A stretch of DNA of 45,598 nucleotides from Fragilaria crotonensis. Taxonomy: Eukaryota; Bacillariophyta; Fragilariophyceae; Fragilariales; Fragilariaceae. The notes under the pieces are model-generated. The model was not told the DNA's origin and did no database searches. It saw nothing but the letters and a program-made list of their open reading frames with translations. The stretch spans positions 1-45,598 of the forward strand of contig JAKSYS010000514.1 in assembly GCA_022925895.1 (NCBI GenBank). Reading direction: 5' to 3'. Made by a program: the position numbers and the translations under genes. Below, piece after piece: positions 21,174 to 35,337 of the stretch; the first letter of the stretch is position 1, and the number at the start of each line of letters is the position of its first letter.

Positions 21174-24100
21174 ATGGAGGACGATAATGCCTACGACTAT
21201 CTGTTTGGATTCGGCAGCATCATCAATACCAACACACATGCGTCATGGATGGCCGACAGAAGCCAGGCACTACCGGGGCAGAGGGCAAATATTCGAGCTT
21301 GTTTCGGCTACCGTCGAGGTTGGAATTTTCGATCGAACACTGGGTTCACCGCACTTGGCATTGCGAAGGACAACGCGGGCGATGGAACTGTGATAAATGG
21401 CGTACTGTTCCGTATCCCGCATTCTATGCTTTCGTCCTTTGACAGACGGGAGGTGGGGTATGATAGAGTGGAGATGAACCTCGAACATCTTGAACTGTTG
21501 CCAGGTCCAGATTCGGCTGGTGGGTTAGAAGTCGACACCCTCAAAATAGCTGATGGTGCAAAGCTCTGGGTGTATGTCCCAAAGCAGTCGTTTTGTGCCG
21601 AGGCAAATGAGGATCATCCTATACTTCAATCTTATGTGGATACGGTAATACAAGGGTGCTTGCAGTGGGGCGGCGAAGAAATGGCTGAACAGTTTGTTGT
21701 AACCACGTATTGCTGGAGTCCTTATTTTCTCAATGATACTCCTTCTTCCAGACGACCGTGGTTGTTTCGCAAGGAATACAACACAATTGACTCGATATTA
21801 AGTAAACACCCAGCGACCCATTACGAAGATAGACGCCACCCTGAGGAGTTTGCGAGTGCCTTCCTAATCAACATGATGAGAGGAACCTGGTCGATCCCGC
21901 AACGCAACCAACCTTCACTGGCCGCGACTTGGAACTATCACAGATTCATGCGCGACTGATAGCACAAAAGCTGGCCAGAACCATCACACTGGGGTAGCTA
22001 AAGTTGAAATCACGGGCATGGGTGGTGTAGGTACGTTGTGTTCCATTACCGTAGATGCCTAATGCCGCATCGACTAACGGTTGAGATCTCAAGGCAAGAC
22101 GCAACTTTGTACGGAATACTGCTATCGAAACTTCCCTTCGTACTATGGTTTGGTAATCTGGTTGAGCGCGCAAGGAGCCGAACGTATCGTTGCTTGCTAC
22201 CGACAGCTGTTGGCGGACACAACTGGTGTGGATGCTCGCGACAAAGACACCGAGGAGGTCATTTCAGAGGTGAAAGCAAGACTTTTCCGCAGTAAGGTAC
22301 CGTGGCTTCTTGTTTTTGACAATCTCGAGGACCGCTCCCTTCTTCAAAAATTCGTTCCGCACGGAGGCTCATGCGGTCATCTCCTAGTTACTACGCGGTC
22401 ACTTGGAGCTGACGATAATGATCAATCTACCATGATCCTCGGCTGTTTCAGTCCGTCGGAATCAATACAATTGCTCTGCCGCTCTGCGAACATTTCCGGA
22501 GAGATTCATGTGAAAGCAGCACACCACTTAGCGGGCCAGCTAGGTCACCTTCCACTCGCCTTGAGCATGGCTGCGGCATACATGCTACGATGCGACGTTG
22601 ATTGCTCGGAATATTTGGCCCGCTATGCCGACTCCGAGCGAAATGGAGCGCTCCTTGGTCACCAGGTTGTAGAATCCAGTCTAGCGCTAAGTTTGAATGC
22701 AATCAAACGAGAAAGTCAGTTAGCTTGGGAGGTGTTGCGCCTCCTTTGCTGGCTGGGTCCTGATCAAATCACGAAAGCTTTGGTACGCACTCTACTGCGG
22801 GCCAAGCATGCTCACTCGATAGAAGAGGCCAATACTATGTCGCAAGCGAAGGCATCATCGGAGGCCGAAGCACTGGCGCGAAAGGCAGCTGCGGACGCCA
22901 TACGGGGTATTTCCCGGACTGTCTTGATAGGAGGGCTGGCCATGTTGACAACGTTTGTACTGGAAAGGCGCACGAAGGGCTCAAATCGGCTAGCGGCGGC
23001 GCGCATCGCTGCCAAATCGATGGTCACTGTATGCATGGCTGCAACGTATCTTCTTACGTGCCGGGCCAAAAGTCTGGACAATGCTCTTCCATTGGCGCCC
23101 AAGGTATCACAGATAGTGCTCACTGCTGATTCGGCGAAGGTGCCTTTTGATGAGTTTGAGCAAACAGATTCAATCTGGAAAATTGTGAAGTCATTCTCCT
23201 TACTTGTCGTAAAGGAATCCAAGGGGTCGATGCATAGATTGCTGGCACAAGCTCTGAGAAAGTCACAAACCGAAGCGGAAGGTCGAGTCAGTTTGAAGAT
23301 CTGCGTCCATGCGATCAAACAGGCCTGGAGATTCAAGCCCGACCAAATCGAAAGCTGGCAAGAGTCGGCGTACATTTTGGAACACTTAAAAGCAGTTGTC
23401 GCTTATTCGTGTCTGCATCCCGATGGTTTGCAGCTAGATTGTGCAATTCTATCAAGGGAAGCAGGAGTTTTCTCAGCGATGGCATTAAACAGATTCGACG
23501 ATGCAAAAGACTCCCTGGACCAGTCGTTAGAGATCCTAAATAGGATAGACAATGGGTCACAGTCTCATAGCCGTGCTCGTGCGGCGGTTCTCTACGAGCT
23601 TGGGCGTGTCCTTCGATATCAGGGAAGCTTTCGAAATTCTGAAGAGGCGCTCTCAAAGGCGCTTCTCATTCGTAGTGCGCTGGTCAGTACAGACTTCGAC
23701 GAGCGCCATGGTGTGGCGGCGATTCTCCACGAACTTGGGGTGCTTGAGGTGAAGAAACACAATTTGCAGGCTGCTGCCGACTTCCTTGAACCAGCCCTTG
23801 ACTTACGCCGCATCTTGGACGTCGGATCAGCCGGTGAAGTCGTCGAAGCCGATTGTGCCGCAACATTGCACCAGCTCGCGGCTGTTCACCTTGCAAGAAA
23901 ACCGCCATCTCTAGCCGAAGCTGAAGCTCTTCTGCAAGAAGCCTTGGGGCTGAGGATGCAAATCGGCCAGAGAGCTGCAACGCTCAAGCAACTTGCACGA
24001 GTCGCTATCCGACGAGGTGAGTTCGATTCCGCTGACCGCAGCTTATCGCAGGCTCTCGAGTTGTATGTTGAACTTTACGGGGAGGCCGCCCTTCATGTCA

Positions 24101-24792
24101 ATGTTGCCGCAGTCAAATTCCAGCAAGGTGTCCTCGCTTTTCAGAGGGAACAGTTCGGGCAAGCTTGGGATCTGTATTCGGAATGCCTTCGAGCCAGAAG
24201 ATACGTATATTCATACATCCAGGGTGTCCATATTGACGTGTCGTCCGTGCTACATGAACTTGGTCGTGTTGCCTTCGCTGAACAGGATATAATCAAGGCG
24301 CAAGAAATGTTGCTCTCAGAAAAGGAGGTTCTGGATCAGCTATGTGAAAGCCATACTCATGATCAACGAATGCTGCAAGCACGCCTCACGAATTTGACAT
24401 GGTTGTGCAAATGTGCGAAAGAGCTCGGGGATGATAAGGAGGCTCGACGACTAGCAGCAGAACGAAACAGTTTAAAGCGGCACGATAAACCAGTACAAGC
24501 ATCAGACTTGCAATTGAGTCAAGAGCCTCGAACTCTTAATTTGCAGCACGAAGCGTTGCTCTGTCGGTCAGTAGCACGACAAGATGCGCTTTCCGGCATG
24601 GGAAGTATCGATGCGGATAGAACACAACTCAGGACTGCCTTGGATCGCCTTTCTCGACAGATTCAGCATTCTGAACCGCATTTGCTAAGGACCGCAGCGA
24701 TCAAGTTCCACACGCTTGTCACGGACTCTCTAAACCAGTCGACCACTGTGGCTAGGGGCTCAATTCTACAAGCATGTGACATGTTGAGGTGA
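21174..24792 (+). CDS. GGCT-like / STAND (NB-ARC) NTPase / TPR fusion protein, two exons, two apparent 1-base losses
   Basis: Reads as one protein of about 1,185 residues. Domain 1 (about residues 8-225) is gamma-glutamylcyclotransferase-like: the Y-L-F-G-F-G-S substrate loop and F-D-R-R-E-V-G-Y-D-R-V with the candidate catalytic Glu. The R-N-Q-x-F-T-G-R-D-L-E-L motif that normally precedes STAND modules comes next, then the P-loop G-M-G-G-V-G-K-T-Q, Walker B W-L-L-V-F-D-N-L-E-D, the sensor L-L-V-T-T-R-S and G-H-L-P-L-A-L. TPR units fill the C-terminal 400 residues. The 63-bp intron 22031-22093 (GTACGT...CAAG) lies inside the P-loop codons. GGCT and STAND reading frames differ, but adding one C near 21912-21913 and one A to 21966-21969 makes a single frame through all family motifs, and total length then becomes a multiple of three. 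An Ala-rich insert with two hydrophobic stretches sits between the NTPase and the TPRs (about 22800-23070). If the breaks are real, the locus is two ORFs. The stop overlaps a GTGAGT, so another C-terminal exon is possible. Confidence 0.85.
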
Positions 24793-24995: not shown

Positions 24996-26000
24996 CTATT
25001 GCAAGAGCCTTGCAATCAATTCAGACTTACTCCCAGAAACTTTCAAACCACGCTCTCTTAGCATTTCTTTCAAAACAGGAACTGTGCTCTTCGCCAGGGA
25101 TTCGCTGTCGAGACCCCCCGACACTGGTGATACTTTGGGGCTTTTCGCTTTAGATGTAGGTGCAAGATCACCATTCCAATCCTTGCTTTCTCGTGCTTTT
25201 GGAGCTACAGCCTCTGTCTCTAATTGCGCCGACAAATCGTCTCCTGGAGCCACGGGTTCAGCGAAGCTGCTCGTCCTGTCGAACCCTTGCCCTGACAGTT
25301 CCTTTTCAAGATTTGCAAAGAAGTCGTCACCATCGTCGTCGGCAGCAGTCGCCTTCACGACAGGTCGAGGCTTGCGATCTGTGACAGCAGTCTGGATATC
25401 TGTCACGAATCTATCGCCATTCGCATTAAATGGAGAAGAACCACCCAATTCTGCTTCAAGAGCCGCAAAGAAGTCAATATCATCAGGACTCGAGACTGCT
25501 TCGGTCTGCTGGCGTGGCTTCGTTTCTCTTTTACCGTTTTCTTTTCCATTGTCCAACTCTGATATCAGTGAGGAAAAGAAGTCATCATCACTGCCGAAAG
25601 AAACGGCAGACTCTGGACCTGTGCTTTGTTGACCGTTCAATTCGGACATGAGAGACCTGAAGAACGCATCGTCCTCTTGGTCAGGCGATTTAGTTGGCGA
25701 AGGCGATGGCGAGACGAAGGCATTCCAGTCACCACCATCCAATGCGCTCCGCACTCGCTGAAGCTCGCCATCATTGCGAGGATTGCGAGCTTTGTCGCTG
25801 TTACTGGGTCGTCTTTCGTCGCCTTGACCACGCCTTCTATCATCACTGGGACCGCGGTCACGACGATCTTCACGCTGGGAGTAACGACCCCACTGACTGT
25901 CCACGTCCGCCATCGGGAGGTCTCGTTGACCTCCGTCGTTGACACCCGCTGCATCTCTTGGTCCAGCTCTTGAACCCTGTTGGTCTTGATCCGTGACCAT
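24996..26000 (-). CDS. SAP-domain protein with four acidic FF repeats; probable C-terminal half of the NusG-like protein
   Basis: A 334-residue ORF with ATG at 26000. The N-terminal 100 residues are Arg/Asp/Gly-rich and probably disordered. Four repeats of the form D-D-x-F-F-x-x-L-x-x-E-L lie near residues 110-122, 138-150, 174-186 and 225-237, spaced 28 to 51 residues apart. A SAP domain closes the protein (about 301-334: L-x-x-L-K-E-M-L-R-E-R-G-L-K-V-S-G-S-K-S-E-L), a helix-turn-helix fold that binds DNA. It begins nine bases after the UGA of the upstream NusG-like ORF and in the same frame. A separate nuclear gene with a 9-bp spacer is unlikely, so I read the two ORFs as one gene interrupted by, or reading through, a UGA. 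Confidence 0.8.
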   Translation of the reverse strand: MVTDQDQQGSRAGPRDAAGVNDGGQRDLPMADVDSQWGRYSQREDRRDRGPSDDRRRGQGDERRPSNSDKARNPRNDGELQRVRSALDGGDWNAFVSPSPSPTKSPDQEDDAFFRSLMSELNGQQSTGPESAVSFGSDDDFFSSLISELDNGKENGKRETKPRQQTEAVSSPDDIDFFAALEAELGGSSPFNANGDRFVTDIQTAVTDRKPRPVVKATAADDDGDDFFANLEKELSGQGFDRTSSFAEPVAPGDDLSAQLETEAVAPKARESKDWNGDLAPTSKAKSPKVSPVSGGLDSESLAKSTVPVLKEMLRERGLKVSGSKSELIARLLQ

Positions 26001-26009
26001 TTCTTTTCT

Positions 26010-27161
26010 TCATTTTGCGCTCAGCATCAGACCGTCAAAGACGTCGCGCTTGTACCTGTCGCCGCGCTGTATGGTTTCAAATCGAGTATTCCGCGGTCCT
26101 CGGTTCCCGCTAACATTGCTCATTAGCGCCCGTCGAAGCCCACCAGACCCATTTTGGTCGGACCTTTGATCTCGCATATCATCACTACCTTCAAGGTCAT
26201 GCTGCGTGACCGGCATGCTAGGTCCAGAAAGACCACGTAGGGCTTCTTCAGCCGAAAGTTTTCGAACGTCTTTGGGGTCCAACCATTCTTCGTAGGTGCT
26301 TCCGTACGTGAAAAAGCGTATCATGAGCTTTCCATTCTTGAGGCGCTTAACAATGCCATCCTCCCCCTTGAATTTTCCGTCGCCGATTACTTTAACCATG
26401 TCGTCTGGTCGAAGGTCCATGTACGCCTGAAGTTGCTCTTTGTCAATCTTGGCTCCCTTTGCCTTAGCCTTTTTTTCGTTCTCTGCTGTGTCAACAATCA
26501 CACCCTCCTCGTTCATCAACTCCTGAACAAGGTCTTCCGAAAAATCAACTTCCTCCCCTAATTCCTCCAATCCAAACTTCTCAATCTCCATTTCGTTGAG
26601 AGCTAACGGTGATGGAGGTAGTTTTTTGTATCCCTTCTTGTTGACAGTTCCCATCCAAGAACGGCAGAGATCCAGGTCTTGAATCGCCTCATACACTTCT
26701 TCGCAGAGTCGAAGCTTGGCAAAGACATAGCCTGGATATCCCACCTTTGTGTCGGTCACGATGCGATTCGGACCATGAGATCGAGTAGACCGTTCAATGG
26801 GTACCACAAACTTGACCACGTCTTCCATATGTCCGCATCTGGCACGGCACTGGCGCAATAGGTCGAGTTCCTGAGTGACGATACAATTGAGCAAGTACCA
26901 CATTGGCTCGGAGTCTTCTTCTATTTCCAAGCGCTGCCAGAGTTTGCCGTACCGAGCGGTGCCTGTCCTTGAAGGTGCGAGTCGGCGCGTATTAATGACA
27001 AGGGGCCTGCCATCCTGGGAATCGTGAGGGTTGTGGTGTGCATTGTATTTCAGGGAGGGTTGAAGCAGGAATGCAGTGTAGCTTTGAATACAAAGAAGGA
27101 GAACCAAATGTAAAAAACCACTGTTGCAGCCACGACACTGCGGTTGCGGGGAGCGCTTCAT
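26010..27161 (-). CDS. Plastid-targeted NusG-like transcription factor (NGN and KOW domains)
   Basis: 383 residues from ATG 27161. The N-terminus has a hydrophobic signal peptide (about 15-30) ending in S-Y-T-A followed by F-L-L, the Phe-at-+1 signature of diatom plastid leaders. The NGN domain covers about 87-172 (M-W-Y-L-L-N-C at its start, G-Y-P-G-Y-V-F-A-K-L in the middle, C-R-S-W-M-G at its end). An acidic linker follows and then a KOW domain at about 250-301 (V-K-V-I-G-D-G-K-F-K-G-E-D-G-I-V-K). NusG binds the clamp of bacterial-type RNA polymerase and increases processivity or couples to ribosomes; here the target would be the plastid-encoded polymerase. The ORF ends at UGA (26010-26012) in frame with the SAP ORF. 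The Arg-rich C-terminal region continues in the same style across the stop. Confidence 0.9.
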   Translation of the reverse strand: MKRSPQPQCRGCNSGFLHLVLLLCIQSYTAFLLQPSLKYNAHHNPHDSQDGRPLVINTRRLAPSRTGTARYGKLWQRLEIEEDSEPMWYLLNCIVTQELDLLRQCRARCGHMEDVVKFVVPIERSTRSHGPNRIVTDTKVGYPGYVFAKLRLCEEVYEAIQDLDLCRSWMGTVNKKGYKKLPPSPLALNEMEIEKFGLEELGEEVDFSEDLVQELMNEEGVIVDTAENEKKAKAKGAKIDKEQLQAYMDLRPDDMVKVIGDGKFKGEDGIVKRLKNGKLMIRFFTYGSTYEEWLDPKDVRKLSAEEALRGLSGPSMPVTQHDLEGSDDMRDQRSDQNGSGGLRRALMSNVSGNRGPRNTRFETIQRGDRYKRDVFDGLMLSAK

Positions 27162-27703
27162 GGCAGAACGCCGAACATGAAACTTAATGTGATTTTCTGT
27201 GGTGAGACAGATCCATCAGTTGAAAGCTAAAAGCCAAGCAGAGGGATAAATCAACCGGTGATGGACAGAGCATCACTACCAGCGTATCAGCACATCAGCA
27301 GATCGCCAATATCGTACCGTATGTACCAGGTACTAGTACCAGTAACCAGAACTCAACTCGTGCCAGACTACAAGTACTGGTACTGGATTTACCGGTAACC
27401 GGTACTACCATTAGACAATTGTCGTACACCTCCAACGAAAGAGAGACGGGTATGGCATACAATACAACACCACAAACCATAGAACACCCGATTATATTCG
27501 TAGGCAGTAGACCTCCAATGTACCGGGCTTTCCTTTGGAGGCATGGCACGTCCTAGATTCCAAGATAAATACATCGTTTCTTCCTAAAGATCATAAATAG
27601 TTTATGGTAAGCCGTGACAAACGCACGCGTTGTTCCAGACAATTTTCGTCGGAATGTTTGGAGCCTAAATGAAAGCGTGCGTTCCATGTTCCATTGAGCG
27701 TGT
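27162..27703. other. Intergenic region with dense GTAC words
   Basis: Lies between the NusG-like start and the 3' end of the next minus-strand gene. Positions 27315-27415 are packed with GTACCAGGTACTAGTACC-like and ACCGGTAACCGGTAC words. No ORF with support. Presumed to carry the NusG-like promoter near 27160-27300. Confidence 0.45.
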
Positions 27704-30252: not shown

Positions 30253-30772
30253 ATTTTCACAAGAGTTTCAACTTACCAAATCTCGGCAGAAACACATATA
30301 TGTTTTGCAAACAGTTCGTATCATAGATCCTTCATTACCCTGTCAACAGCAATGAAGAATGATCAAAGTACTGGAGCAACATCTGAATGAGCTGTCGATG
30401 ATAAACAAGTCTGCGTTTTTGATTTACTGGTTCAAAGTTGTGTATAAATTTGTATACATATATGGATAATATTCTTATATTCTGTTGTTGATTTATTTCA
30501 CAAGTGTTCGGTGAATCGAAATTCATATTGGTACAGGGTTTTGAACGAGCTGTTTGTACCACAACGTGTGGTACAAACGCCAAGTGGATTTCTCCTCGCA
30601 GACGTATGAAAATATTCAGAACTGTAATTTATAAAGATTTGGAGGGCATCCTCGACGTGTGAAAAAGGGTCGTGCAGCAATGTTTTGACGTCTCATCTAT
30701 GGTGCACTTTTTTGTGAGAACTGAGCAATCATATTGCTTTTCTATGTGCAGAACATACCTCTATATGTTCAC
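30253..30772. other. Gene-free region left of the Harbinger element
   Basis: AT-rich, no ORF with support. It contains a near-perfect palindrome at 30552-30578 (12-bp arms GTTTGTACCACA and its complement, 3-bp loop). It probably belongs to the older element marked by the outer inverted repeats. Confidence 0.4.
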
Positions 30773-30775
30773 TCA

Positions 30776-30833
30776 GGCCGATGCTTACAGAAAATAGAAA
30801 AAGACATGCCTAAAAAAAGACGTCATTTTTGTG
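30776..30833 (+). repeat. Harbinger left terminal inverted repeat
   Basis: Starts GGCCGATGC directly after TSD TCA and includes GACGTCATTTTT near its inner end. It pairs with the inverted sequence ending at 35253, with a single extra base in the right copy. Confidence 0.9.
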
Positions 30834-30884
30834 GAAACTCAATGCTTACGTCCTCAAAAGTCGACATAAATCGAAACAAAAACG

Positions 30885-30976
30885 GTGTCGCTTTTTTTGG
30901 AACCGGGATCTTTTCGCCAGGCAAAGAAAAAGCGACACTGTTTTTGACTCGACCCGGCTGGAAACAAAAGCGACAC
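30885..30976 (+). repeat. Subterminal GTGTCGCTTTT repeats inside Harbinger
   Basis: Three copies of an 11- to 13-base word: GTGTCGCTTTTTTT at 30885-30898 on the plus strand, and its inverse AAAAAGCGACAC at 30927-30938 and AAAAGCGACAC at 30966-30976. The first two can form a hairpin. Subterminal repeats of this sort are often transposase binding sites; that role is inferred. Confidence 0.6.
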
Positions 30977-31037
30977 TGGAGTACTCGCTACTAGCCTCAT
31001 ACGCATCCGATTGGCGCCGATTGCCAAGTTTTGCACA

Positions 31038-32903
31038 ATGTTCGTCAAAGCTAATTCTACCACCTTGCGCACCGTTTCTGAAGCAACCATGGGACTAAAA
31101 GCTTCGCGACTTCTCGCGATCGACATGGTAAAGGGTCTGTGTGGTGATGGTGGCGAAGATCCGCTCACCGAAAATGATTGTTTCAACAAAGATGGCGAGA
31201 TTGATGACGAGAGACTCGAAAGTTATCTCATGCAAGATGACGACGACGACGAACGGAAGACAAAGGCGCGGATTGCTTTGGCGTACATGGTTGGACAGAG
31301 AATTAAACGGAAAAGAGAAGTCTTGCTTGAGTCCGAGAGAGAGCGAAACCGCCCGCCCAAGAAAACGCGGATTTCACGCCCGAGGTGGTATACTGATCCG
31401 GTCACAGGAGCGCGGCGCAAGAAGACGCCAAAAATGAGTGCATGGTGGGAGGATTACATTGATGATCCGCAACCCGGCAATCAGCATTGGGCAAAGGAGT
31501 TTAGACAGAATTTTCGCTTACCATATGCATCGTATGTGATGCTTCTTGATATGATATCATCGGAAGCAAGCGACGGGTTGTTTGACAGATGGATCAAGGC
31601 ATATGAAAGGACCAACAACATAAAAAACAAAAAGGTTTCGCCAATCGAATTGCTTCTCTTGGGTTCGCTTCGTTATCTGGGAAGAGGATGGACGTTTGAC
31701 GACATGAAGGATGTAACATACATCAGTCGCGACGTCCATCGTAAGTTTTTTCACCAATTTGTCAAGTTCAGAGCAAAGGTACTGTATCCAATGTATGTGT
31801 CGGCGCCGCGTTCGGTTGAGGAACTGAGGGATTGTGAGCAGGAATACAATATTGCAGGCTTTCCAGGTTGCATTGGTAGCACCGATGCAACCCATATTCC
31901 TCTTGAAAAGGTTTGTTTTTCTTTGCGCCAAGCGCACCTTGGGGCGAAGTCGAAAAGTACGATGCGGACTTATAATCTGACTTGCAATCATCGCCGCCAA
32001 ATTTTGCACACAACATCTGGTCACCCTGGTAGATGGAACGACAAAACATTGATTCGTTTTGATACTTTTATGTCAGAGCTTCGCGACGGAGGCTTGGATG
32101 ACAAGATGGATTTCGAGTTGCGGACGCGACAAGGAATGACGAGTGACGAGGAAGGTGACGACAGGATACTTAGACTCAAGGGCGCTTACGTCATAGTGGA
32201 TAACGGCTACCTTGAGTGGTCGACGACAGTGCCACCCGTGAAAGATTCGTGCAACCGGTTGGAGCTGAGGTTTTCTCAGTGGCTAGAGTCTATGAGAAAG
32301 GATGTTGAGTGCACCTTTGGGATCTTGAAAGGTCGCTGGCGAATTCTGAAGAGTGGAATTTGAGTTCACAACACGGAAGTAGTTGATAATATCTGGCTCA
32401 CCTGTTGTGCTTTGCACAATATGCTATTGGATGTTGACGGCCTGAGCAAGGCCTGGAAAAATGGTGTTCGTTCCCGTTGGGAGACGGAATTTGGCGAGTT
32501 TCGAGACGAAGAGATTCCTTTTGCTGTTCGGAGATTGGTTGATCCTACGGGCACAGAGGACTTCCGTCTACGGCATTACGATGGGTCGCGATTTGGATAT
32601 CGACGCCCGCCAATTGTAGTAAGTGATAATGAGGAGGAGGACGACGACGGCAATGAAAGTGATGGCAATTGCAGTCGCCACCGCAATCGCAATCGCAACG
32701 GGAGTGGCCACCGGCGCAATAGTACGACCGGAGCAGGAGGTCGAATCCAATCGGGTACCGCAGTCAACAAACTGAACTTCTTTCAGTTTCGTTCGCTGCT
32801 TGTCGAAAATTTCAATATTCGTTTTCACGAAAACAATCTGCAGTGGCCAAAGAGACTTTCTCGTTCGAGACCAAGAAATGTTCCTGTCATGACGATTGTA
32901 TGA
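31038..32903 (+). pseudogene. Harbinger transposase (DDE_Tnp_4), interrupted by one in-frame UGA
   Basis: ATG at 31038. A basic, acidic-patched N-terminus precedes the nuclease domain. The DDE blocks are C-I-G-S-T-D-A-T-H-I-P (first Asp, near 31870), A-Y-V-I-V-D-N-G-Y-L (second Asp, near 32195) and M-R-K-D-V-E-C-T-F-G-I-L-K-G-R-W (Glu, near 32310). The frame meets UGA at 32361-32363. The same frame then continues V-H-N-T-E-V-V-D-N-I-W-L-T-C-C-A-L-H-N-M-L, the family's conserved C-terminal segment, to 32903. The expected residue at the stop is Arg, so CGA to TGA (one transition) explains it. The C-terminal tail has D/E-rich and N-R-rich low-complexity runs. Confidence 0.88.
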
Positions 32904-33191
32904 ATCTGCAATCAAGAGGTGGGCCACCTGCCGCTGTCACGCGTCGTGCGATATTGTCGTTCTGGCATTGCGTTGCATGTGAAAATGCTGGCTGAGACTG
33001 CCGAGACTGTGGGGTGAGTCATGCATCGGCATCAGACATCAAAAAAGTTGTCATTGACGTCGTTGTGATAGCAGTGCGAAAGTGTACGATAATTTATTTC
33101 TAGTCATTGTATTACTAGCTAGCTACTAGTAGTAGTAGACTATTTCTTCCCTGCCCATGTATTTCCCCGGCCCCTTCCCATTGTTACTTTA
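32904..33191. other. Gap between the convergent Harbinger ORFs
   Basis: No ORF with support. Contains a short TAG/AGT simple repeat near 33115-33140 and serves as the shared 3' flank of the two convergent genes. Confidence 0.4.
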
Positions 33192-35046
33192 TTACCCGCC
33201 TCGTCTTCCGACAAAGTCTCTAGTCCGTGTAGTTGTTGTAGTCTCCGTTGCGAATGCAAAGCACGTCTTGCACCAAGTAATGTTGTGCAATCCCCGATTC
33301 ACATCGCAACAACAAGAGCAGACACAAACTTTCTTGCATTTCAAGCAAGTGTGGTTTGTTGGAATCAAGTTACACTCCATGCAAGTCGTGATGTTTGGAG
33401 TGCTGGCTGGCATACTATCGTTTCCGCCACCAGCATTTTCGACGACAACAATATCACGGTTTCTCTCACTCTCCTTTCCGTTCTTGTTGTTGCTGTTGTT
33501 GCTTTCCGCCACTGTCGTCGTTTCCGCCGCTGTCGTTTCCGCTGCTGCTCTCGATTCCGCTGGTGCTCTCAAAACTTCCACTTGTTCCAATCATTGGGGT
33601 TGCAATCCCAATCATCGCGACACCTCCTGACATCGCGCGTCGTTTTTTCTCTACAATCATATTGCTATGGCGTCGACGCTCTTCTTCTTGCACCGTCACA
33701 AGAGCAGCTTCCAGTCTCTCGATTTCTTCTTCATTTGCCTCCAACTTCTCAAGCAAAGTTGCGTCAGGCTTCTTCTTCTTCGACGAAAGATTCAGCCTTT
33801 GAAGAAAAACTTCACTGCGTCTTTTACATGCAACAAGCTTATCACGAACGAGACGAACACGCAGACTATGTTGCGCCTTCTCTTCCTTTTCGATAGCCTC
33901 CTCAGAAAGGTGCTCAAGCGTCTTGGTCAAGAGAGCCAATTCAGCCGCATCGCCAGCAGCATTAGCAGGCTGCACATTTGTATCAAGCATGTTGTTGTCA
34001 CGTTTTTTCCCACGTCCACGTCGGTTGTCAACAGGAGCTGCACTGGCTGCAATCACTGCATTTCGCATCGCGCTCCGAGTCGACGTGCCACGTCCGTACG
34101 ACGTATTGGCTTTTGCGTTGCTAAAAAGTTTCGACACCATCTGCGCCCCATCATTAAGGAGGGGGATGTGCCCCCAAAGGGCCCATGCAAGGAAACCCAC
34201 CCCAACTTTGAAAAAAGAAGCATCAGCGGATGGTGAAAGAGGATCTTGTGGCTCCGCTGCCATTCCTTCAACTTGTGTCATCGTTGCTGCAGGAGCAATT
34301 CCTATCGCAGCAGTTTCTGTCGTTGTTGTTACTGTAGTAGCAGCAGTACTTGTAGCAGGAGCTTCCGTTGTTGCAGGGGGCTTGCAGAGTCCTTTCTCTT
34401 TAGCCTCTCGGTCATATTCGTTTTGCATGGCAACAAGACACCATTTGATGTAGTCATCCCAGTTAGTACCGGATGGAAAAGATCCATCGCGATACGGTGA
34501 ACCCGAAGCTGTCACAAGTGCCATCATCTTCTTGCAGGTCTTCACGACAGTTTTTCCCTTACCCAGTAATGTACTACCGGGAATCCTGTCACAGTTCTTG
34601 AAGTTTTTCTGGGACAAGAGCTCCTTGGTGATCGACTTCTGTCCAACAAAAACATTTAGCCCGCCATGCCTATGCAACTTTTGTGGCATAGTAAGGACAA
34701 TTTGTCCAAATTCGTTTGGTTCCTCGGAACTGGTGAACATACCCTTGAACCTGTGTAGCCCATAGATGAACTGGTCGAGGTAACTGATGGTTTCTGGGTC
34801 ATTGCCGCCAAAGTACAGATCAGTCATTGTCTTGGCCTGCTCGGCATCATTCATTGAATCTCCCCCCTGGGCAATAGAAGGCGAATCGTAACATGCGAAA
34901 GCAATAAGGGCCTGCATCTCCATCAAGAGCTTCTTCGAAACGCTCGTTCCGACTCGCTTGCCCGCTCTCGACATGGTGCGCGCCGAATTCTTTTTGTTTG
35001 ATGGATATTGTGTTGGATCCAAGAAGTTTGATTGACCAATACACAT
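33192..35046 (-). CDS. Harbinger second protein with coiled coil and Cys-rich C-terminus, two exons
   Basis: The ORF begins at ATG 35046 (a later ATG near 34974 is an alternative). A 67-bp intron (33403-33469, GTGAGA...CCAG) joins it to a second exon (33402-33192). The spliced length, 1,788 bases, is a multiple of three and gives 595 residues. The N-terminal 200 residues form an unrecognised globular region. A Thr/Ala-rich linker, a short hydrophobic stretch, a Lys/Glu coiled coil and a Gly/Ser/Gln low-complexity tail follow. Exon 2 encodes a dense Cys cluster (C-x2-C, C-x2-C and C-V-C-S-C-C-C near the end) likely to bind zinc. Harbinger elements usually carry a Myb/SANT protein as second gene; I see no Myb repeat, so this is a different accessory protein or a very diverged one. 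Confidence 0.72.
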
Positions 35047-35194
35047 ACACAAATTGGTATTGTTTCTACGCTGTGTGATTCAACGGCTCGTCGGCAGCAC
35101 TTCTATACATTGCTAAAGAACTAATATAAACTTGTAGATTGTTTGAAGGGCCTTCAAGAAATGAACACTGTAACCATTGGATTTCGTCAGACCA

Positions 35195-35253
35195 AATAAA
35201 AATGACGTCGTTTTTTTAGGCATGTCTTTTTCTATTTTCTGTAAGCATCGGCC
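35195..35253 (-). repeat. Harbinger right terminal inverted repeat
   Basis: Inverted match of 30776-30833, ending GCATCGGCC before TSD TCA (35254-35256). It contains the same GACGTC box near the inner end. Confidence 0.9.
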
Positions 35254-35337
35254 TCAGGAGAGCTTTACAATAGGTCATGGAGTGAAATTATGAAAATTGG
35301 AGTGTTTTCGTGTAGAGGTCCTTGAATTTCACACGAG

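Follow-up and report, generated by a model that had tools for sequence, protein, structure and literature searches.

A conserved protein family in diatoms and certain other eukaryotes combines a candidate gamma-glutamyl enzyme with a STAND switch

Does the locus at positions 21174-24792 (plus strand) of a 45,598-nt stretch of Fragilaria crotonensis DNA, hereafter the window (contig JAKSYS010000514.1), encode one protein or two, and what might such a protein do? A first-pass annotation, made from the letters of the window alone, had read there a GGCT-like (gamma-glutamylcyclotransferase-like) domain, an NB-ARC/STAND NTPase module and tetratricopeptide repeats (TPRs) as one protein, despite two breaks in the reading frame. 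The motifs, the NB-ARC model score and the homologues described below all agree with this composition, and comparison of sequences makes it very likely that one gene encodes a single GGCT-STAND-TPR protein. They also place this protein in a conserved family, apparently undescribed as far as we searched, with members in many diatoms and certain other eukaryotes.

The GGCT-like open reading frame (ORF) begins at the ATG at 21174, while the NB-ARC and TPR parts lie on a 904-codon ORF; the P-loop, Walker B, TTR and GxP motifs and the TPRs are all downstream of the GGCT-like ORF. Exon 1 (21174..22030; all features of the gene are on the plus strand) carries the GGCT-like domain, its C-terminal extension, the opening of the STAND module and the first part of the P-loop, and contains both frame breaks of the assembly. 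The P-loop is interrupted by a 63-nt GT-AG intron (22031..22093) with a CTAAC branch-like site, noted by eye, and exon 2 (22094..24792) supplies the remaining NB-ARC part, the winged helix, a hydrophobic hairpin, the TPRs and the stop codon. Splicing out the intron and reading through the breaks yields 3558 nt of coding sequence (1185 aa), divisible by three as the first-pass annotation had calculated. An Rfam scan of the window yielded no match reaching a gathering score.

The first break lies near 21905 (within 21903..21930), inside the R-N-x-x-F-T-G-R-D stretch that opens the STAND module, and comparison with a second contig, C66, puts the other near 21966 (within 21958..21975). In the source assembly (62.1 Mb, 881 contigs), the minus strand of C66 carries this locus too, matching at 99.1% over 9.57 kb, and this copy is open across both breaks, from the end of the GGCT part through R-N-x-x-F-T-G-R-D to the P-loop. 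Over 9574 aligned columns, the two contigs show 4 substitutions and 53 length differences, the window being one base short at 11 places, which include both frame breaks, and C66 being short at 42. Repeats or homopolymers surround 45 of the 53 (9 of the 11 window-short and 36 of the 42 C66-short places). Since C66 is itself shorter at 17 places inside the gene, it is no better overall than the window, and the two look like two noisy assemblies of one locus. Relative to the window's own contig (C464), C66 begins inside the window (near 32475) and extends leftwards, as a redundant or haplotype contig; with just 4 substitutions in 9.57 kb, we rejected the idea that it is a paralogue.

Most likely, then, the assembly is in error at both breaks, as the first-pass annotation had supposed: C66 is open there, the contigs differ almost only in short lengths, and six diagnostic motifs recur in one order among homologues. 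The long exon 2 is sound, given its ungapped match (898 of 903 residues identical) to P0002 (source 'lgn'), a database protein from a separate assembly. A reading as two neighboring genes, one for a GGCT enzyme and one for a STAND protein, in which the frame breaks are real or mark a fusion that has decayed, has in its favor that the window is broken twice; the open copy on C66 and the kind of difference between the contigs speak against it, as do homologues that run unbroken through the junction and the independent confirmation of exon 2. We consider it very improbable, and the second copy and the homologues, which had already largely refuted it, led us to reject separate genes as well as a pseudogene.

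How widely is this architecture shared? The first-pass annotation had proposed searching diatom proteomes for GGCT and NB-ARC/TPR parts in one protein, and a database search with the 1185-aa protein as query gave 638 matches. The best 120 of these include dozens of about 1150-1380 aa that are 43-61% identical to the query across 97-100% of its length, and several transcriptome-derived members (e.g., P0006, P0032, P0044, and P0067). Named diatoms among the matches listed are Corethron, Mayamaea, Attheya, Seminavis, Fistulifera, Thalassiosira, Cylindrotheca, Skeletonema, Nitzschia, and Cyclotella; Corethron is the closest named relative by identity (70% over 480 columns). The dinoflagellate Prorocentrum is also among the best 120 of the 638, as a gene model without the first part of the GGCT domain, and it recurs, together with further eukaryotes, among the 48 matches of a region search with a distant member. 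A profile search for distant members performed poorly, with 27 matches of which 26 covered no more than 22% of the query; these 26 were left out of the family counts.

All six diagnostic motifs are present in 86 of the 145 retrieved homologues, truncated models included, and stand in the same order in each of the 86; counting the window's own protein, the figures are 87 of 146 and 87 of 87. Taken singly among the 146, the patterns were found 109 times for the loop, 124 for the Glu motif, 128 for the extension, 123 for the P-loop, 131 for Walker B and 120 for M-H-R. These counts understate some motifs because of sequence variants: three loop-bearing proteins missed by the Glu pattern still have the Glu, and eight missed by the P-loop pattern have a variant P-loop with its Lys kept. 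Residue counts given below come from an alignment (A2) of 86 rows, chosen from 120 proteins mainly by near-complete length, and therefore describe near-complete members.

A quick tree of 55 rows united 33 of them, including all named diatoms, in one group with support 100. Several deep lineages fall outside this group, some on long branches whose placement is unsure; P0105, P0148, and P0169 are among the rows placed outside. Within the diatom group, median identity (18 proteins) is 0.50 for the GGCT core, 0.74 for its C-terminal extension, 0.62 for the NTPase core, 0.56 for the TPR region and just 0.15 for the hairpin. In the Fragilaria genome itself we count at least one family locus, the one read twice in the window and on C66. 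The earlier statement that no protein of this architecture had been described holds in that no title or abstract found in our search of open-licence papers describes a GGCT-STAND fusion; yet dozens of unnamed database proteins share the architecture, so this is a family rather than a new protein of one alga.

Turning to the N-terminal part, the GGCT-like core (21174..21610, end approximate) contains an F-G-F-G-S loop, an R-x-W-x-F ... G-F-T-A-L-G stretch and a D-R-R-E-V-G-Y motif. The Y-G-S-L-type loop keeps its Gly and Ser in 75 of the 75 ungapped rows, with Phe at the Tyr position in the window, and the candidate catalytic Glu (codon 21450..21452) is present in 85 of 85 ungapped rows. A YGSL loop and a catalytic Glu are common to GGCT-fold enzymes, and ChaC enzymes use glutathione as a substrate (PMC7022552). 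With all tested catalytic positions kept, the domain is a candidate gamma-glutamyl enzyme.

The core is followed by a C-terminal extension (21611..21860, ends approximate; Q-S-Y-V-D-T-V ... F-L-N-D-T-P-S-S-R-R-P-W-L ... R-H-P-E-E-F), where the protein is most strongly conserved; both Arg and the Trp of its R-R-P-W are present in 86 of 86 rows. Bacterial relatives of the domain were found at 70 loci, none of which (0/70) has a P-loop in the same ORF. The four best (L016-L019), 34-37% identical over nearly the whole domain, carry the loop, a D-x-R-E-x-G-Y motif and the R-R-P-W extension; three of them look exported, judging by eye from a signal-like N-terminus. Since these four share R-R-P-W, the extension belongs with this GGCT subfamily, and we discarded the possibility that an additional domain of another kind sits between the GGCT and STAND parts. 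Elsewhere in the Fragilaria genome there is a standalone GGCT relative (L015 2355-3182, G000:C669; 33% identical, loop and D-R-R-E-x-G-Y kept), and ChaC matches lie on C194 and C56. The C56 match (L087, G000:C56:104863-105435) contains seven internal stop codons, reflecting introns or a decayed copy.

Several observations temper the enzymatic reading. The NCBIfam GGCT model NF049903, which is ChaC-named, matches the window's domain with an E value of 2.5e-11 and is found in 12 of 12 diverse family domains, but the window's score of 43.6 bits falls short of the curated cut-off of 480. Pfam ChaC reached just 1 of the 12 members, at 0.13; Pfam GGACT scored 16.3 bits on the window, under its cut-off of 22.8; and a PDB sequence search with the GGCT part matched no chain. 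In addition, by eye, the conserved T-G-F-T-A-L-G stretch offers no clear counterpart of the substrate-loop residues His39 and Arg40 of human ChaC2, which leaves glutathione as just one candidate substrate. As for the proposed link to plant AIG2 and immunity, it is weak, the domain fitting NF049903 better than the Pfam GGACT/AIG2 model, which picked up 4 of the 12 members at E values up to 1 (best 0.00066); with the window under that model's cut-off, we rejected kinship to AIG2.

The central module is more readily placed. After the opening motif (21903..21930, identified from the C66 comparison and the alignment) and the P-loop, whose Walker A Lys is kept in 86 of 86 rows, it presents a Walker B (W-L-L-V-F-D-N-L-E-D, 22303..22332; Asp in 86/86), a sensor-1-like L-L-V-T-T-R (22381..22398; Arg in 85/86), a GxP motif (L-G-H-L-P-L-A-L, 22540..22563; Pro in 86/86) and, at the end of the winged helix and the MHD position, M-H-R-L-L (23230..23256; His and Arg in 86/86). 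Pfam NB-ARC scores 39.2 bits on a joined piece, over its cut-off of 23.5. By these sequence features, namely P-loop, Walker B, sensor Arg, GxP motif, MHD-type His and model score, the module is a STAND/NB-ARC member. The NTPase part of the family profile (approximately residues 250-515) matches chains of AfsR, Roq1, Apaf-1, NRC and RPP13-like protein 4, which we take to be ZAR1. The TPR region (23560..24430, ends approximate; TPR_12 1.3e-13) is kinesin-light-chain/NPHP3-like, and the corresponding part of the profile matches kinesin light chain chains, at best with 1.4e-18.

Scanning the genome with Pfam NB-ARC turned up a single further gene that passes the cut-off, on C394 (L089 2514-5786, G000:C394:36013-39285), with a 1090-aa ORF and TPR-like repeats, as seen by eye; a GGCT search found nothing at this gene. 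Because the NB-ARC search missed the window's own gene, with its intron-split P-loop, the number of NB-ARC genes in the genome is uncertain.

A feature absent from the first-pass description is a hydrophobic hairpin inside the winged-helix domain, located after the first winged-helix helix (I-T-K-x-L-L) and before W-x-I-L-K-S-F-S-L-L ... M-H-R-L. It consists of two hydrophobic segments (22906..22962, aa 558-576, Kyte-Doolittle mean 1.61; and 23005..23061, aa 591-609, mean 1.49) separated by a cationic turn of net charge +4 (22963..23004). Such a pair of segments of about 19 residues with a short cationic turn recurs in most members of the scorable set, which comprises 106 of the 146 proteins (the other 40, some of them truncated gene models, were unscored). 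Both hydropathy thresholds were passed by 84 of the 106, compared with 1 of 1615 control stretches from the same proteins. The best hydrophobic peak tops the rest of the protein in 102 of the 106 and the second peak does so in 87, the median peaks being 1.94 and 1.62 against a rest-of-protein median of 1.33. In 104 of the 106 the turn is no longer than 30 aa, and it is net positive in 100 of these and zero in 4 (median length 9, median charge +3); turns in the control stretches are positive in 349 of 949. This hydropathy is kept at a sequence identity in the diatom group of just 0.15.

We infer from this pattern that the hairpin likely inserts in a membrane. The following points count against that placement. 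One or both thresholds are missed by 22 of the 106 scored proteins, and on a looser two-peak score P0169, P0114, and P0055 are low, while the level reached by 107 of 118 members is also reached by 4 of 12 unrelated P-loop proteins; hydropathy alone is thus neither specific nor universal. Moreover, under the positive-inside rule a cationic turn would face the cytosol, which fits poorly with a hairpin that simply spans the membrane while the NTPase is cytosolic. Membrane insertion is therefore likely but unproven. The pair might instead be a helical hairpin buried within a soluble protein, or a spacer with many small residues, leaving the protein cytosolic, an arrangement that would be compatible with a switch and would fit the cationic turn, the many Ala, Gly, and Ser residues, and the few low-scoring members. 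Yet median peaks that exceed the rest of the protein at 15% identity are usual for membrane segments, and we regard the soluble form as possible, though on the unlikely side.

What, then, could the protein do? Our preferred reading, to which we give about an even chance, is a membrane-held STAND switch of about 1185 aa that gates the breakdown of a gamma-glutamyl compound, perhaps glutathione, by the GGCT-like enzyme, with the TPRs as sensor. At rest, the ADP-bound switch would sit on the membrane, held by the hairpin, with the TPRs folded back; a ligand or partner binding the TPRs would permit exchange of ADP for ATP. The winged helix would then swing and protomers would assemble, bringing the GGCT domains together or uncovering them, so that they would cleave a gamma-glutamyl substrate (glutathione or a related peptide being the most likely) and the local thiol pool would shift. 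Several parts of this scheme are inferred: insertion in a membrane, the nature of the substrate, assembly driven by ATP, the switch's activation of the enzyme, and a role in stress or cell fate. Since proteins built in the same way occur in many diatoms and in certain other eukaryotes, this is probably a conserved stress switch, not the oddity of a single genome.

An alternative assignment of the parts makes the GGCT domain the sensor, which would bind or slowly turn over a gamma-glutamyl metabolite and so report the thiol state to the STAND switch, with the hairpin or a TPR partner as the switch's output. The extension adjoining the STAND module is the most conserved stretch (0.74), as expected if it couples the two, and the hairpin offers a second candidate output. 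However, the catalytic Glu, invariant in the 85 ungapped rows, goes beyond the needs of binding alone, and STAND proteins usually sense through their C-terminal repeats; we think this assignment unlikely. A classical NLR-type immune receptor directed against diatom viruses, bacteria or parasites, with the GGCT domain as death or defence effector, seems to us rather improbable too. The module is of the same NB-ARC class as Roq1, ZAR1, NRC and Apaf-1, and a Thalassiosira pseudonana NB-ARC/TPR protein, which may or may not be an orthologue, is discussed in connection with cell death in PMC5599023. Against a receptor stand the single family locus in this genome (a lower bound), which shows no expansion here, and TPRs that are not fast-changing within the diatom group; a genome search that found one other NB-ARC gene over the cut-off points the same way, weakly, as it missed the window's own gene. 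PADLOC gave only a marginal AbiEi match (0.0053), its sole hit, and we likewise rejected a bacterial defence system.

This genome has one family locus, and the TPRs (0.56) are more conserved than the GGCT core (0.50), though less so than the NTPase core (0.62); on balance we therefore favor a switch acting in stress or cell fate over a pathogen receptor. The immune switch of the first-pass annotation is accordingly less probable than it seemed, one locus with conserved TPRs being unlike an arms-race NLR. In a diatom, oxidation of the chloroplast glutathione redox state precedes and correlates with later death and has been tied to cell fate (PMC6682412); our literature search, at the level of titles and abstracts, turned up no named switch acting on it. 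The T. pseudonana NB-ARC/TPR protein is slightly lower under nitrate limitation and higher under phosphate limitation (PMC5599023). A bolder version, which we consider a long shot, is a two-output death or commitment switch, in which the STAND wheel would push the cationic-tipped hairpins into a membrane or through it, perhaps an organelle's, and a ring of GGCT domains would destroy glutathione beside it. If true, membrane and redox balance would fail together in unicellular algae, and the part of a STAND protein that acts on membranes would belong to the moving switch domain itself rather than to an N-terminal domain.

Beyond the gene, two neighboring regions of the window deserve mention. 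On the minus strand, 24996-27215 holds a NusG/KOW-like protein with a plastid-type presequence and an adjoining ORF that ends in a SAP-like motif, both noted by eye. Within 25991-26036 the window lacks a single base relative to C66 three times, so these two ORFs are probably one gene. Further on, 30772-35258 is a multi-copy element of about 4.5 kb with terminal inverted repeats of about 59 bp, itself sitting in another repeat; whole or partial copies, 96-98% identical, lie on C659, C761, and C527.

How does the family relate to known systems? Its GGCT part matches the model of bacterial ChaC-named GGCTs (NF049903, the FTN_0599 family), which were compared by model only, and has the loop, Glu motif and R-R-P-W extension in common with its four best bacterial relatives; the bacterial proteins differ in being unfused. 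Plant AIG2-like proteins belong to the same GGCT-like superfamily, at a distance that leaves the window under the GGACT/AIG2 cut-off, and no fusion of AIG2 with a STAND module is known to us. With AfsR, Roq1, ZAR1, NRC, and Apaf-1, the diatom protein shares the NTPase motifs and the profile match; it differs from them by its TPRs, where most of them have LRR or WD40 repeats, by its N-terminal GGCT enzyme, and by the hydrophobic hairpin within the winged helix, a probable membrane element for which no parallel in another STAND protein is known to us. Brown algae, fungi, and bacteria also have NB-ARC-TPR proteins, with the two parts in the same order; these form expanded families, whereas the diatom family has one locus here, and we know of no GGCT domain or hairpin in them. 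Found in many diatoms and also in more deeply branching eukaryotes, the family combines a candidate gamma-glutamyl enzyme with a STAND switch and is a concrete, testable candidate for a protein through which phytoplankton might sense stress and settle cell fate. What is new here is a variant within the STAND kind, one with a GGCT enzyme and a winged-helix hairpin.

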